NCBI GenBank assembly: GCA_002788135.1
Contig: PFQT01000053.1
Location: 1-39,862, forward strand
DNA: 39,862 nucleotides
From: Candidatus Yonathbacteria bacterium CG_4_8_14_3_um_filter_46_25
GTDB lineage: Bacteria; Patescibacteriota; Minisyncoccia; Phycocordibacterales; UBA1539
Reading direction: 5' to 3'
In this document: piece after piece, positions 2,458 to 11,119 of the stretch
Layout: each line of letters begins with the position of its first letter
How positions within the stretch are numbered: the stretch's first letter is position 1
Made by a program: the position numbers and the translations under genes
The notes under the pieces: generated by a model
Databases searched by the model: none
Seen by the model: the letters and a program-made list of their open reading frames with translations, nothing else
What the model was told of the DNA's origin: nothing

Positions 2458-3612
2458 TCACGGGAGATATATACGCTTAATGAGCGGATTGATCCGTGTT
2501 ACCACCTCATAATTGATCGAGTCTGACATTCGCGCCAAATCGTCGACGGTAACATGCTTCCCGTCCTGCTCGCCGATAATGACAACTTCGTCCCCGGGTG
2601 CCGCTTTTGGCACATCCGTAACATCAAGTACAACCATATCCATCGAAACACGACCGACAACGCGCGCGCGGCGCCCTCGCACCAGCATTGACCCAACACT
2701 CGAAAACACTCGCGAATAACCGTGCCAATACCCGATCGGGACGACCGCGATTTTTGTCTTCCGCTCAAGCGTTTCCGTCAGATCATACCCAACACCCATA
2801 CCCGCTTCAAGTTCTTTTGTTTCGCCGATAATAGTCTTCCATGAGAGTATCGGAGCAAGCGAAAATTTCCGACTCGCAAACGCCTCAACCTCTTTGGATG
2901 GCCAAAGACCATACGACCCGATCCCGATACGCACCATGTCAAAATGCGCTTCTGGAAAGAGAACGGCACCCGATGTTGCGGCGGCATGGGTGACCGGCAC
3001 AAGACCGAGACGTTTGAATTCATTGATCCATTGTTTGAGAAGAGCAATCTGCCCGACGGTATAGGCGGGAAAAGAGGGATTCTTTGCTACGGCAAAATGA
3101 GTATAGAGTCCCTCAACGGCAAGTTTGTTTTTTTTACCAGTAACAAGACGCATTACGTCAGGAAGTTCACCGATGAGAAAGCCTTGCCGATGCATTCCCG
3201 TATCAACTTTGACATGAAGATTCGGACATTTTTCGGAAGGATATCGGGCAATCTCTTTCAGAGCCGCCATATTTGAAACCGTGATGCTTATGTTATATTT
3301 TCGCGCTTCAGCGATCCTACCATCCAGCGTATGCCCAAGCACAAGAATCGGCGCGCCAACCCCTTCACGACGTAGAGCAATACCCTCAACAATAGAGTCA
3401 ACCCCAAGCCAATCAACGCCGATTGTCACGATCTCTTTCGAAAAAGAGATGAGGTCGTGCCCGTATGCGTTCGATTTAACAACCGCCATCAAACTGCACG
3501 TCTTAGGTATAACAGAGCGAAATATTTTGTAATTGTGCGCTATCGCTTTTCGGTCGATCTCAATCCACGTCCGCAGTTCATTTTTCGTTTGTTTTGCGCC
3601 ATTGAGAAGCAT
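2458..3612 (-). CDS. alr: Alanine racemase
   Basis: AVVKSNAYGHD PLP-lysine motif, VKVDTGMHRQGF, RVSMDMVVLDVT. Confidence 0.95.
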   Translation of the reverse strand: MLLNGAKQTKNELRTWIEIDRKAIAHNYKIFRSVIPKTCSLMAVVKSNAYGHDLISFSKEIVTIGVDWLGVDSIVEGIALRREGVGAPILVLGHTLDGRIAEARKYNISITVSNMAALKEIARYPSEKCPNLHVKVDTGMHRQGFLIGELPDVMRLVTGKKNKLAVEGLYTHFAVAKNPSFPAYTVGQIALLKQWINEFKRLGLVPVTHAAATSGAVLFPEAHFDMVRIGIGSYGLWPSKEVEAFASRKFSLAPILSWKTIIGETKELEAGMGVGYDLTETLERKTKIAVVPIGYWHGYSRVFSSVGSMLVRGRRARVVGRVSMDMVVLDVTDVPKAAPGDEVVIIGEQDGKHVTVDDLARMSDSINYEVVTRINPLIKRIYLP

Positions 3613-3630
3613 AGTGTCCTTGATTGTAGC

Positions 3631-3799
3631 AAAAAAAATCCCCCCGTGCCATTTGCGGCAACGATGGGGGGCGAACCTGGGCGACCTCTACCAAAAGAGC
3701 GGGAGGGGGGATGGGACCGCGCATCGGGATAGAGACCGTCCCAGGTCCGCCATATAGGTCGATGAGAGGCGGAGGAGGAACTCATCAACCTATATCTAC
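3631..3799 (-). ncRNA. Candidate structured small RNA or alr leader/attenuator
   Basis: Consensus promoter (3805-3832), 15-bp stem (3752-3795) with loop UUCCUCCUCCGCCU, 12-bp stem (3670-3681/3740-3751), G/C terminator stem (3640-3671) followed by a U-run at 3631-3638. Confidence 0.7.
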
Positions 3800-3804
3800 T
3801 ATAA

Positions 3805-3832
3805 ATTTTACTCGACTTTTTTTATTTGTCAA
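3805..3832 (-). promoter_or_regulatory. Sigma70-type promoter for the candidate RNA upstream of alr
   Basis: TTGACA - 16 nt - TAAAAT on the minus strand. Confidence 0.7.
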
Positions 3833-3921
3833 CCCCCTGTTCTCAACACCGACATTTGCCCCGTAAATGTCGGGCATCTACAGACAGGACACGTGAATTC
3901 TGGTCTACAGTGCATCTGTAA

Positions 3922-5352
3922 TTAGTATCGTTTCCATAGAGAATCTTTTTTAATGCTTATTCCCAAATCAACTCTTTGTCTATTAGATATTTCAGCAGGC
4001 GCGTTCATTATTAAGTCTTTACCATCGCCAGTCTTCGCGAAAGCAATCACTTCTCTTATATTTAGTTCTTGTTCAAGAATCATCATGAGTCTATCGAAAC
4101 CCCACGCAATGCCTCCATGGGGGGGAGCCCCAAGTTCCAATGCTTTCAACATATGGCCAAAATTATTTTCTATTCTCTCATTGTTGTAACCCATAATTTC
4201 GAAAGTAGTTCGGAGAGCGGAAGGTTTGTGGTTCCTTATGCTTCCACCCCCAATTTCAAGCCCATTCAAAGTAATGTCGTATTGCGTGGTAAGAATTTCT
4301 CCAATACTCTCTTTGCTCATAAATTTTTCAAAATCTTCGTCTCTTGGTTTTGAAAAAGGATTGTGAGTGAACGTCCACTCGCCGGTGCCATCAACATTAT
4401 CTTCTCCTGTCTTTTCAAACATGGGAAAATCTACAATCCAAAGAAATGCAAGAAGATTTGCGTCTGTCTTGTCTTCTCTTATATCAGGTCTGTCATTTCC
4501 ATACTTCCCCATTGCTTCTTTATAAGGCATTCTCGGAAAGGGTATTTGTTGTATTCTTTTTTCAGGATAATATTTTTCTACAATAGAAATCAATATTTTC
4601 TCATTTAGCTGAATAATATCTTCTTCGGTAACAAAAGACATTTCCATATCAAGCTGGGTAAACTCAGGTTGCCTGTCGCCACGAGTATCTTCATCTCGCA
4701 TACAGCGTGCAAATTGAAAATACTTTTCAAAACCACTAACCATTAAAAGTTGTTTATATTGTTGTGGAGATTGAGGAAGAGAATAAAAGCTTCCTTTGTA
4801 AATTCTACTTGGCACAACATATGAACGAGATCCTTCGGGCGTCGGTGCAGATAAAAGGGGCGTTTCTATTTCTAAAAAGCCATCTTTTTCAAGATAATTT
4901 CGAATGAAATTTTGAATTTTAAATCTATTTGCAATATTTTTGTGCATTCTGTCGCTTCGTAAATCCAAATATCTGTATTTAAGACGAATAGATTCGTTCA
5001 CCTCTCTAGTATCACCACTAATCGGGAACGGCAAAGTTGCCGATTCATTTAAAACATTGATGTGCAAAATCTCAAGTTCTATATCTCCATTTAGTATTCC
5101 TGATTTTTTATTTTTCTCGGGTCTTTCATTAACCTTTCCGGTAATTTCAACTACAAATTCTTCTCGTAGAGTTTTACCAATCTCCATTGCGTTACTATTC
5201 GGCAATATCACACCTTGTATGATGCCTGATGTATCACGAAAATCCAAAAAAATCATTTTCCCTTGATCACGACGAACATTTATCCAACCATAAATAATCA
5301 CCGTTTCCTGTTTTTTTTCTGATAATTCATTTATGTAGGTTCTTTGCTTCAT
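3922..5352 (-). CDS. aspS: Bacterial-type aspartyl-tRNA synthetase lacking the GAD insertion domain
   Basis: GSRSYVVPSR..YSLPQSPQQYKQLLMVSGFEKYFQFARCMRDEDTRGDRQPEFTQLDMEMSF; PPHGGIAWGFDRLMM; IREVIAFAKT; only 476 aa. Confidence 0.95.
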   Translation of the reverse strand: MKQRTYINELSEKKQETVIIYGWINVRRDQGKMIFLDFRDTSGIIQGVILPNSNAMEIGKTLREEFVVEITGKVNERPEKNKKSGILNGDIELEILHINVLNESATLPFPISGDTREVNESIRLKYRYLDLRSDRMHKNIANRFKIQNFIRNYLEKDGFLEIETPLLSAPTPEGSRSYVVPSRIYKGSFYSLPQSPQQYKQLLMVSGFEKYFQFARCMRDEDTRGDRQPEFTQLDMEMSFVTEEDIIQLNEKILISIVEKYYPEKRIQQIPFPRMPYKEAMGKYGNDRPDIREDKTDANLLAFLWIVDFPMFEKTGEDNVDGTGEWTFTHNPFSKPRDEDFEKFMSKESIGEILTTQYDITLNGLEIGGGSIRNHKPSALRTTFEIMGYNNERIENNFGHMLKALELGAPPHGGIAWGFDRLMMILEQELNIREVIAFAKTGDGKDLIMNAPAEISNRQRVDLGISIKKDSLWKRY

Positions 5353-6318: not shown

Positions 6319-7500
6319 CTACCGCACCGTCGCGGCGAACTCGTGAACAACCGAATCGTCCTGGATGACGATTCCGAGGTGCCGCCGCGAGGTGGCGGAA
6401 CGGCGCAAGCTTCCCACGACGTTCTTGGGAAGCACCGGCTCGTCCGAGCCGGCGAGAAGGAGTTTCACCTCCTCACTACGCGGATCGATGGGGATCCGCA
6501 CGATCGTCCCCCCGTCTCCCCTGGTCATGTCGCCAGGGAGGCGGAACGAGAACGCCATGCGATCAACCTCGTCCGCGATTGTCGCATGTGCGTCAATCGC
6601 GTCCCGCAGGTCATCCTGCAGATCCGCCATTGCCCTATCGGCCTCGGCGAACAGCGCTTCGGCCTGGTCGGCGCGCTTCGCGGCCTCTTTTGCGTGGCCG
6701 GCAAGTCCGCGTGCGGTCTCCTCAACGCCCTTCCGCACATCACGCTGATGGAGCGCGATGATGCAAAGAAGAAGCGTGGCGGCGAAAAGCCATCCTTCCG
6801 GGGCCGTGAAGCCCCGGATTCGCTCGATCGCCGTCGCCACAGTCAGTGGCGGATTCACGGGGGGGATGACCTCCGAAAGAATCTTGTCGATCCCCGCGGC
6901 GATCACGGCAAGGCGCGTCGAGAGCGCGGACATGTGCGTCTCGATGCCGTCAAACCGCGCGATCGCGGCGGCGAGCGCGTCCTTTAAAGCCGCGACCTGC
7001 GACTCAAGGTCGGCGACCTGCGCTCGCGCGGCAACAACAATCGGCAGAGCCGCGACATCAAGTGGCTCCATGTTGGCGAGCGCGTAACTCACCGCGCCCC
7101 CTGCCCGCCGCTCAAGCACGACATTCGCGGGCAGGGTGACGGTGTTTGGCGGCACCACTGACCCGTCAGCCATGCGGACGACGTACGTCGTCCCGACGGC
7201 TCCGGGTCGTGCCGAAGCCATCCACACGCCAGCCGAGAGGTGGCGAAACGCCTCGTCGGAACAATCCGCCATGGCGTTTACGACACAAAACTCCTCGAGA
7301 AACTCCTCGAGGGTGACGTCAGGACGGTAAAACTGGTTCCAGATGTCCCACGCCGTTCCCCCCGGCTGGAGCTCGTACTCCTCAACTGAACGGATAACCA
7401 AGTTATCCGTCGAAGGAGCGGCGATGGCGCTGTCCGCGATGGCTGGCATATCATGCATCACTACGAGTACTGCGACGAGTACTGCGACGATCATTTTCAT
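6319..7500 (-). CDS. Secreted/membrane protein with N-terminal signal, LysM-like segment, coiled coil and internal TM helix
   Basis: MKMIVAVLVAVLVVMHDMPAIADS signal; coiled-coil RAQVADLESQVAALKDALAAAI; TM GWLFAATLLLCIIAL; SD aaggagag upstream of the ATG at 7500. Confidence 0.75.
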   Translation of the reverse strand: MKMIVAVLVAVLVVMHDMPAIADSAIAAPSTDNLVIRSVEEYELQPGGTAWDIWNQFYRPDVTLEEFLEEFCVVNAMADCSDEAFRHLSAGVWMASARPGAVGTTYVVRMADGSVVPPNTVTLPANVVLERRAGGAVSYALANMEPLDVAALPIVVAARAQVADLESQVAALKDALAAAIARFDGIETHMSALSTRLAVIAAGIDKILSEVIPPVNPPLTVATAIERIRGFTAPEGWLFAATLLLCIIALHQRDVRKGVEETARGLAGHAKEAAKRADQAEALFAEADRAMADLQDDLRDAIDAHATIADEVDRMAFSFRLPGDMTRGDGGTIVRIPIDPRSEEVKLLLAGSDEPVLPKNVVGSLRRSATSRRHLGIVIQDDSVVHEFAATVR

Positions 7501-7780
7501 CTTCTCTCCTTGCTGTGGTCTCACGACTTCGCGTGAGACCTATTGATGTGGCGAGCACGCGAGCACGTTTTTCGCGGTTCGCGGTAATTCTTTGCTCCTT
7601 CTTTTGGCTTTTGGAAGTGGTTGTAAAAGTCCTTCTCTCCTGTATTCATTGCAACGGCGGACAAGGGAGTTTTTTCCCTCAAATCCAGCCATTATTGGCA
7701 TATTTCAACACAATAACGCAATAATCGTGCTTTCGTAATCTCGGTTCTTTCTACCCTAAATCAATCATTTTGTCAATCCG

Positions 7781-7809
7781 TAGCTATAAAGGTCCGACCT
7801 TTATAGCTA
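7781..7809. repeat. 29-bp perfect palindrome with 1-nt centre
   Basis: tagctataaaggtc-c-gacctttatagcta. Confidence 0.9.
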
Positions 7810-7814
7810 TATTC

Positions 7815-7856
7815 AAAAAAAGGCCCTGCGTCGAGAAATATGCTCGACACAGGGCC
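7815..7856 (-). terminator. Rho-independent terminator of the 7868-9115 gene
   Basis: ggccctg(c)gtcgag-aaatatg-ctcgac(a)cagggcc stem, T-run on the minus strand. Confidence 0.8.
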
Positions 7857-7867
7857 GGAAAAGAACT

Positions 7868-9115
7868 TCAGTGGGGAGCGACAATCCCCTGCGCGACGGA
7901 ATGGTCCGTCGCGGCGACTTGCCCGACAACGTTGCCGCTCCCGCCCACATTGGACGTTTGGACCGTCCCGCCCGGCGCGACAATGTGCGGGCCGTTGTTG
8001 TTGGTGGTGTTGTTGTTGACCACTCGATTGACCACCGAGTGGTCACTTTGGTCGACGTCGGCAGTCGCATCCGACGTCGAATTTGACGAGCTGGAGCTAT
8101 ATGTATGCGCCATGCTCGCCCCGCCGGTCGCGTTGATTGTGGGGTTTGCCGTCGCGTTTCCGCCAATGCCCCCCGCGCCGCCGGAAGCGGTATTGGTCGA
8201 ACTGACCACCGTCGGACCGGTGTAGCTCGTCCCGCCAGAACCACCCTCAGCGGTGGTGCTAATATCACCGACTCCGGACGAGCTGGTACTGCCGGCAACG
8301 TTGACCGCTCCGGTCGTAGCACCGCCCGCCGTGTTGGTGTTCTCAACCCGCACCGCGCCTGGCGCAACCGCCACATCGCCACCGGCAACATCGCCGACAT
8401 TGCCGCCGTGGCTCGTCGAAGACGAGTTTGGGTTCGCGGTAACACTCACCGCGCCGCCCGTCATGACGCCGCCGTTTTGCGTTGGGCTGGCAACCGCGCT
8501 GACCGCGCCGTCGGCGAGATTGACGTTCGCGTCACCGCTCGTCGCGGAAACACCGTCAACCGATCCGCCGGTTGAGTTCGCGGCGCCGCCTTCCCCACCA
8601 GTGGCAGTTTGGTCCTGCGCCTGCGACTGGTTACCGCCCTCGTTCGTGAGGGTGGTACTCGCGTTATAGGTCGGCGGAGCAAGGTTTGTCCCGAACGCAC
8701 GCGCCGCTTCCACGTTGCCCGTTGCGATTGCCTCCGCCGCCTGCACATTACCGCTCGCGGTCGCTTGCGCGGCGCGTTCAGCACCTTTGGCGATTTCCCG
8801 CGCGGCAGTCGCGTTGCCGAACGCGGTCGCGATTGCGGCACCGGCGCCGACACCGAAGCCGTCAACCATCGACTGTCCCCAGCCAACGCCCCCGAAACAC
8901 GCCTGCCCGATGGGGATGTCGCGCACGAACGTGTAGGTACACGTTCCCTTGGCACCCCCGTCAAATCCGGTCCCGGTGTCAACCACCATGGACCAGACTC
9001 CATATTTTTCGGCGATGTTCGCCCCCGGCCCCCCAACCTTGGGGACAACGGTTGTTGAGTGCGCACACGCGCACAGACAACACAACGAGATAAGAGAGAT
9101 AAGAACTTTTTTCAC
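7868..9115 (-). CDS. Lipoprotein/secreted protein with hendecad repeats and long Gly/Ser/Thr/Asn-rich tail
   Basis: MKKVLISLISLCCLCACAHS lipobox-like signal; (AxGNxxAAxxx) repeats; low-complexity tail. Confidence 0.75.
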   Translation of the reverse strand: MKKVLISLISLCCLCACAHSTTVVPKVGGPGANIAEKYGVWSMVVDTGTGFDGGAKGTCTYTFVRDIPIGQACFGGVGWGQSMVDGFGVGAGAAIATAFGNATAAREIAKGAERAAQATASGNVQAAEAIATGNVEAARAFGTNLAPPTYNASTTLTNEGGNQSQAQDQTATGGEGGAANSTGGSVDGVSATSGDANVNLADGAVSAVASPTQNGGVMTGGAVSVTANPNSSSTSHGGNVGDVAGGDVAVAPGAVRVENTNTAGGATTGAVNVAGSTSSSGVGDISTTAEGGSGGTSYTGPTVVSSTNTASGGAGGIGGNATANPTINATGGASMAHTYSSSSSNSTSDATADVDQSDHSVVNRVVNNNTTNNNGPHIVAPGGTVQTSNVGGSGNVVGQVAATDHSVAQGIVAPH

Positions 9116-9795
9116 TCCTTCTCCTTTCCCTCGACATCGACATCGAGGACTTGATACGATTCCTGAATCACCGTAATTGGCGATCCAGTATGGGACACGA
9201 CGACCGAGCCGGTGTCAATCCATGCTCGCCAGCGCGGATACACCGATCCCTCCGTTCTCACCGTCCTGATCCGGTAGCGTTTTGGCAACGGCGGATCAGG
9301 ACGATACTCCGGAGGCGGCTCTTCCGTGACCTCGTCTTCGCTTTCTCCCTCATCTTGCAAAACGTGAATCACGTTTCCGCAATAGAGCGAAAAGGCGGGG
9401 GTGCCGGCAATATAGGCGAATATCTCGCCCGGGTCGCACGGCGCGACGTCCTCACGGTGCCATATGCCAAACTCTCCGGCGTCGTTCACGCGCTCGATTT
9501 CGGGGACGTTTCCTTCCGTCCACGAGCACGTCTCGACGGACGTTATCGCCGCTTCGAGTTCCTCGCGTGACGAAAGCAGGTGCCCCTGCCTCCTTAACCG
9601 CTCAAGGAACTGCGGAAGCGTCACGTAGACACTCACGCCGGGTGTTCCCGACTCGATATCGTCGAGAAGCTCGGCAACGCTCGTCCGAGCCGTTCGCCAC
9701 ACGAACGGATGCCACGTGTCGGACCCGCGTGCCCTGGCCGGGACAAAAAACGTCACCGTGAAGCACAGACAACACAACGAGATAATCTTCTTCAC
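9112..9795 (-). CDS. Secreted hypothetical protein
   Basis: MKKIISLCCLCFTVTFFVPARARG signal peptide; SD-like ggagaaag upstream; stop overlaps the next gene by 4 nt. Confidence 0.7.
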   Translation of the reverse strand: MKKIISLCCLCFTVTFFVPARARGSDTWHPFVWRTARTSVAELLDDIESGTPGVSVYVTLPQFLERLRRQGHLLSSREELEAAITSVETCSWTEGNVPEIERVNDAGEFGIWHREDVAPCDPGEIFAYIAGTPAFSLYCGNVIHVLQDEGESEDEVTEEPPPEYRPDPPLPKRYRIRTVRTEGSVYPRWRAWIDTGSVVVSHTGSPITVIQESYQVLDVDVEGKEKE

Positions 9796-10549: not shown

Positions 10550-11119
10550 ATGAGCTCGCATAAGAAGATTTTTGCATGCGGAGCGCTCATCGTCTTCGCC
10601 TTATGTGTGGAGACGCGAGCGTATTCCGCCGACGACATCGTCGAGATCACCTACGCGGGCGAAGTTGAGGCGGTGATCGGAGAGGTCGCCGAGGATATTA
10701 ACGGCAAAAAACTCTGCCTCATCGCCGTGCGTATCAGGGATGGCGTGGTGATCCGTGATGCGTTTTATGTAGTACACGAAACGGTCAAGGCGGAGATCGC
10801 ACGTCTGATCTGCGACGCGCGCTACCTCAGCGCCATTGATCCGGATGTGCAGAGTTCCATCCGAACAAATATCGGAACGATAGCAAGGTTGCTGTCGCCT
10901 GATGAGGTTAAGATGATGCGACGCCCCCTGGTGTACGGCAACTGGAACGGACACCAGAAAGCCCTGAAGTTCGCTGTCGCCCGATTGGTGAGTATTGTGC
11001 GCTCGGGAGGCAGAGTTTTCGTTTCCTGCAAGATATTCCCGGAAACGAAAAACCACGCGGCGATAGCGTGGATACAAGACATCGAGGTTGGTGGGAGAAC
11101 GTACGTTCTCACCGACTAG
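10550..11119 (+). CDS. Secreted hypothetical protein
   Basis: SD aaggag then MSSHKKIFACGALIVFALCVETRAYSADD signal peptide. Confidence 0.75.
   Translation: MSSHKKIFACGALIVFALCVETRAYSADDIVEITYAGEVEAVIGEVAEDINGKKLCLIAVRIRDGVVIRDAFYVVHETVKAEIARLICDARYLSAIDPDVQSSIRTNIGTIARLLSPDEVKMMRRPLVYGNWNGHQKALKFAVARLVSIVRSGGRVFVSCKIFPETKNHAAIAWIQDIEVGGRTYVLTD

Follow-up and report, generated by a model that had tools for sequence, protein, structure and literature searches.

The window analysed here, a stretch of 39,862 nucleotides, is a contig of an 828-kb bin (98.96% complete) whose host genome is of the Paceibacteria type (Patescibacteria). Two of its minus-strand genes, encoding a class II aminoacyl-tRNA synthetase and the ordinary cell-wall enzyme alanine racemase (alr), are separated by a 309-bp intergenic space, inside which a predicted promoter, a folded region and a terminator follow one another in order on the same strand (Table 1). 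The nearest relatives of the alr product, at about 57%, come from Candidatus Taylorbacteria and other Parcubacteria / Paceibacterota. An inverted repeat without a U-run, CCGACATTT-N-AAATGTCGG, is also found between the stop codon of the synthetase gene and the promoter, and is possibly a processing or termination element.

Table 1. Predicted features of the alr upstream region and other positions referred to in the text; numbers without a prefix are window positions.
Feature	Position	Strand	Details
Class II (Asp/Lys/Asn type) aminoacyl-tRNA synthetase	3922..5352	-	upstream neighbour; Pfam tRNA-synt_2 + tRNA_anti-codon
Inverted repeat	3850-3910	-	no U-run
Sigma-70-type promoter of the RNA	3805..3832	-	TTGACA-N16-TAAAAT, 11/12 matches; predicted RNA start ~3798-3797
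-35 box of the RNA	3832-3827	-	TTGACA
-10 box of the RNA	3810-3805	-	TAAAAT; spacer 16 nt
Entire predicted RNA	3631..3797	-	about 167 nt; single copy
Hairpin 1	3752..3795	-	15 bp including one G-U; 14-nt loop UUCCUCCUCCGCCU (3780-3767)
Hairpin 2	3671..3751	-	12-bp stem, bulged A, 11-bp helix with G-U pairs, weak inner GCGG/CCGC stem
Apical C-rich loop of hairpin 2	~3716-3703	-	UCCCAUCCCCCCUC
Intrinsic terminator	3631..3671	-	CCCCCC...GGGGGG stem, A, then U8; -17.9 kcal/mol
Predicted alr promoter	3623..3652	-	ATGGCA-N18-TACAAT; extended -10 TGCTACAAT (3631-3623), 10 nt before the ATG
alr, alanine racemase	2458..3612	-	downstream neighbour; Pfam Ala_racemase_N + Ala_racemase_C
16S rRNA gene	L134:1311-2812	-	gene ends GUCGUGGAUUAUUUCAAGUGAAAC
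SD-bearing genes in the window	6322-9795	-
SD-bearing genes in the window	10550-11119	+
Other SD-bearing genes	L123:10609, L137:3492, L177:820-3900, L181, L189:2414
Promoter and 63-codon frame	L128:96-340	+	TTGACA-17-GATAAT, then CUGGAGGAGAAAGCC
Palindrome family copies	21782, 38305, 39803, 6103; L121:7039, L125:5449, L177:5970, L180:11766		others also present

The first hairpin begins 9 nt past the end of the promoter -10 box, and the loop of the second hairpin duplicates the C6 of the terminator arm. The terminator, whose loop (that of the third hairpin) reads GCAAAU, does not appear in the list of a simple pattern scanner because its stem has an internal loop. Between the end of the U-run (3631) and the alr ATG (3612) there are 18 nt on the same strand. 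This anatomy agrees closely with the first-pass annotation, which had described a minus-strand TTGACA-16-TAAAAT promoter, a 15-bp hairpin with its loop, a second hairpin with a 12-bp stem, an inner GCGG/CCGC stem and a loop rich in C, and U8 behind a C6/G6 terminator stem, in an RNA of ~165 nt ending ~19 nt ahead of the alr ATG; the G-U-containing helix of the second hairpin, described there as 10 bp, has 11 bp.

The predicted RNA folds with -82.3 kcal/mol, and none of 200 dinucleotide shuffles does as well (z = -6.1). Both C-rich loops are accessible, having an unpaired probability near 1 at nearly all positions, with exceptions at two positions of loop 1. The plus strand folds less well (-72.2 kcal/mol), since the G-U pairs of the minus strand become mismatches on the other strand, and because promoter, terminator and G-U pairs all point to the minus strand, the orientation of the predicted RNA is settled. 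A plus-strand RNA exposing GGA loops, as a CsrA sponge would, was also considered and was rejected, since both signals, promoter and terminator, belong to the minus strand, which also folds better.

Genome-wide statistics were computed on stretches totalling 503 kb of the 828-kb genome. The promoter of the RNA is one of 29 sites with at least 11 of 12 matches in these 503 kb, where Markov shuffles give 6-9, a three- to fourfold excess, and the genome's own 16S and 23S rRNA promoters have a spacer of 16 nt, as in the RNA promoter. When the first 150 nt from each of the 29 strong promoters are folded, this RNA is the most stable (-66.7, the next best being -53.8). An 81-codon frame runs through the RNA, but its codon usage is non-coding and no relatives of its product were found, which rules out an encoded small protein. 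The element thus has, at the sequence level, the marks of an independent small RNA gene: a promoter of its own, an intrinsic terminator and no coding frame.

Structure by itself is not rare in this palindrome-rich genome, and the element may be no functional RNA at all, only a chance or decaying cluster of inverted repeats such as the remnant of a mobile element. Among all 167-nt segments of the genome, corrected for GC, it ranks 108th of 18,104 (z -3.5), so that 107 fold better; perfect palindromes are abundant, with about 30 other stems of at least 15 bp in 276 kb, some palindromes form dispersed families, and the GC content of the element (0.59) exceeds that of the genome (0.46). Moreover, homologues were found nowhere. 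A blastn search of the own-genome, order, phage and plasmid sets returned nothing beyond the element itself, while a covariance model built from this single sequence (R1) recovered only the window's own genome among 397 genomes of the order and no homologue in 384 genomes of the phylum, a comparison in which the host's family has no second member. The exact stem pattern is absent from viral contigs, where no alr protein was found either. On the other hand, a decaying repeat cluster accounts poorly for an ordered promoter, fold and terminator on one strand within 309 bp, for helices containing G-U pairs, which are mismatches as DNA, and for two hairpins neither of which recurs in the genome. 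The absence of a functional RNA is considered unlikely.

Three dispersed palindrome families with conserved tips were noted in the genome: ACTTGGGAGT-CGG-ACTCCCAAGT, TATTGGACAC-TCG-GTGTCCAATA and TATACGAC-loop-GTCGTATA. Several copies are flanked by further inverted repeats, each unique, that lengthen the stem.

The position of the element suggested a second possibility, already raised in the first-pass annotation, namely a cis-acting attenuator or riboswitch-like leader of alr, in which transcription from 3797 would halt at the terminator unless a signal opened it, making alr expression conditional. The terminator directly precedes the gene on the same strand, with its U-run ending just ahead of the ATG, and since C6 is repeated in the loop of hairpin 2, the G6 arm could in principle pair there. 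In this respect the element resembles attenuators and riboswitches before biosynthetic genes, whose hairpins also lead up to an intrinsic terminator directly ahead of the gene; it differs from them in matching no aptamer family (neither a riboswitch nor a T-box is matched in Rfam), in lacking a predicted antiterminator, in preceding a gene with a predicted promoter of its own, and in being absent before alr elsewhere. Masking the 5' arm of the terminator leaves the 3' arm without a partner, and no other stable fold of the terminator emerged. No related leader stands before alr in about 50 relatives.

The predicted promoter of alr itself weighs further against the attenuator. Its extended -10 opens at the last T of the U-run of the RNA, and the layout is common among orthologues: of 47 different sequences upstream of alr, one from the window and 46 from orthologues across the order, 21 have a -10 box of at least 5 of 6 matches within 24 nt of the ATG, whereas each of two flanking windows gives 4. 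Across the genome, too, -10 boxes are concentrated immediately ahead of start codons (53/336 vs 22-24, p = 0.0006). The alr gene is most simply read as a near-leaderless gene with its own predicted promoter, in a separate transcription unit, which would not require the RNA as a leader, and the terminator would most simply close the RNA's own unit. Control of alr by attenuation is accordingly thought unlikely.

C-rich loops are known from several bacterial regulators. In Firmicutes, small RNAs such as RsaE/RoxS, IsrR and LhrC use C-rich unpaired seeds to reach G-rich mRNA sites and have their own terminator. The predicted RNA shares with them the accessible C-rich loops and the terminator; it differs in belonging to another phylum and to a genome without targets rich in Shine-Dalgarno (SD) sequences. 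Rfam gave no match at the gathering score, which bears out the earlier statement that no class was recognised, and the Rsa families are also missing from the matches listed at E up to 10, a relaxed threshold at which only a sub-threshold ar14 match and chance matches appear. The alphaproteobacterial NfeR1 (alpha-r14 or 'cuckoo', Rfam RF02344) is an Hfq-independent RNA, and alpha-r14 has three hairpins with the identical motif CCUCCUCCC (PMC10746234). Like alpha-r14, the predicted RNA is short and intergenic and its loops expose a CCUCCUCC-like sequence on stems of unrelated sequence; CCUCCUCC in loop 1 equals 8 of 9 letters of that motif. The ar14 match, the best in Rfam, covers hairpins 1 and 2 with 20.3 bits (E 0.14), far under the gathering score of 58.8. 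Its main basis is CCUCCUCC in loop 1; the RNA resembles ar14 without belonging to the family, and an ar14 search of the whole genome did not single out the locus. Where alpha-r14 repeats one motif three times, loop 1 reads CCUCCUCCG (G for the ninth C), loop 2 reads CCCCCCUC and the third loop is the GCAAAU of the terminator. Pairing to mRNA start regions, which characterises alpha-r14, is likewise not predicted here, the computed preference being reversed. By analogy, the design is thus like that of alpha-r14/cuckoo and the Firmicutes C-rich-loop RNAs, yet these defining traits of alpha-r14 are lacking.

Silencing by alpha-r14 RNAs takes place at the ribosome binding sites of mRNAs, whereas the 16S rRNA of the present host has no anti-SD. 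Its tail reads GGAUUAUUUCAAG, without CCUCC. CCUCC is likewise missing from every one of the 28 readable 16S tails of relatives in the order (L141-L168), one example being GGAAUAUUUCAA after helix 45. In a phylum-wide sample, CCUCC is kept in 27 of 30 tails, and the lone tail of the same class among those 30 also lacks it. The SD mechanism appears, from these tails, to be gone in the clade. No paper on anti-SD loss in this order was found in the literature collection searched, and the order-wide loss is a more notable by-product of the analysis than the RNA itself.

Of 148 long genes, 7% have GGAG or GAGG ahead of the start; the corresponding share is 2-5% in control windows and 33% in a Bacillota control. 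Strong SDs are found before 21 of 389 genes, against 2-7 in control windows. The 21 SD-bearing genes have textbook AAAGGAG(G) sequences, are richer in GC (0.53 vs 0.46) and include a LeuA-type synthase, a prephenate dehydratase and a SAICAR synthetase; all 21 lack a -10 box ahead of the ATG, a feature present in 60 of the 368 others. These GC-rich genes were probably acquired, with the SDs of their donors retained. As a separate observation, a strong promoter at L128 is followed by CUGGAGGAGAAAGCC, an SD unusually strong for this genome, and by a frame of 63 codons whose small protein product apparently spans the membrane.

A strict anti-SD RNA of the alpha-r14/cuckoo or Staphylococcus Rsa kind, with loops that rival the ribosome for the SDs of many mRNAs, would explain the near-identity of loop 1 to the alpha-r14 motif and the fact that ar14 is the top, if sub-threshold, Rfam match. 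The lack of CCUCC in the own 16S and in those of the order, the scarcity of strong SDs and the weak ar14 score all speak against it, as does the genome-wide target computation, in which the loops pair worse with start regions than with coding interiors, the opposite of the start-region enrichment sought. The SD pairing that the first-pass annotation had taken over from Staphylococcus is not supported as a general mechanism by these results, and an RNA of this strict kind is judged improbable.

Within the SD-bearing set the pairing is better, with a mean loop 1 duplex of -10.8 kcal/mol against -5.9 kcal/mol. Because the better start-region duplexes fall there, these genes would be the first place to look should the loops have SD-type targets at all, although the acquired mRNAs as targets of the RNA are speculative. 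An extension of this idea would have loop 1 display a copy of the lost CCUCC that selectively recognises the few SD-bearing acquired mRNAs, in order to silence them or, more radically, to serve as an anti-SD in trans. This is very improbable. Against the trans anti-SD form, the acquired AAAGGAG(G) sequences fit a canonical CUCCUUU tail better than CCUCCUCC, and relatives without the RNA manage without an anti-SD.

The reading preferred here, an orphan, terminated candidate small RNA gene whose product would probably act through pairing of its C-rich loops with a few G-rich mRNAs, is given an even chance. What counts for a small RNA gene is the strong promoter, the most stable promoter-proximal transcript, the z of -6.1, the G-U pairs that favour the minus strand, the accessible loops, the lack of a coding frame, the separate predicted promoter of alr and the favourable loop duplexes of SD-bearing genes, and what counts against it is that 397 and 384 genomes show no homologue or sign of conservation, together with the poor start-region pairing and the many palindromes. 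The anatomy of the locus, its strand, its uniqueness and its separation from the alr promoter can be read from the DNA itself; from these we infer discrete transcription and action in trans. RNA polymerase would start at ~3797 from the strong sigma-70-type promoter and stop at the C6/G6-U8 terminator; the product, a stable RNA of ~167 nt, would expose its C-rich loops on two long hairpins. These loops would then pair with G-rich segments in a handful of mRNAs, which, going by established small RNA biology, might be blocked in translation or exposed to nucleases and destabilised. The likeliest targets would be the minority of GC-rich, SD-bearing, probably acquired mRNAs, along with other G-rich sites. 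The usual competition with the 16S anti-SD is excluded as a mechanism, since the host 16S has none. Of the initial interpretation, then, the structured RNA with its own predicted promoter and terminator is supported; general SD pairing and the cis attenuator are not.

A lineage-specific regulator, rather than a new class of RNA, is a plausible description of the element. Small RNAs of candidate-phyla-radiation bacteria are almost undescribed, and a literature search on them found nothing relevant. Because CCUCC is missing from the 16S tails across the order, target predictions developed for SD-using bacteria should not be carried over to this group. An RNA with C-rich loops in a clade that has no anti-SD in its 16S rRNA would also provide a natural setting in which to ask whether the SD mechanism is required by such loops at all.
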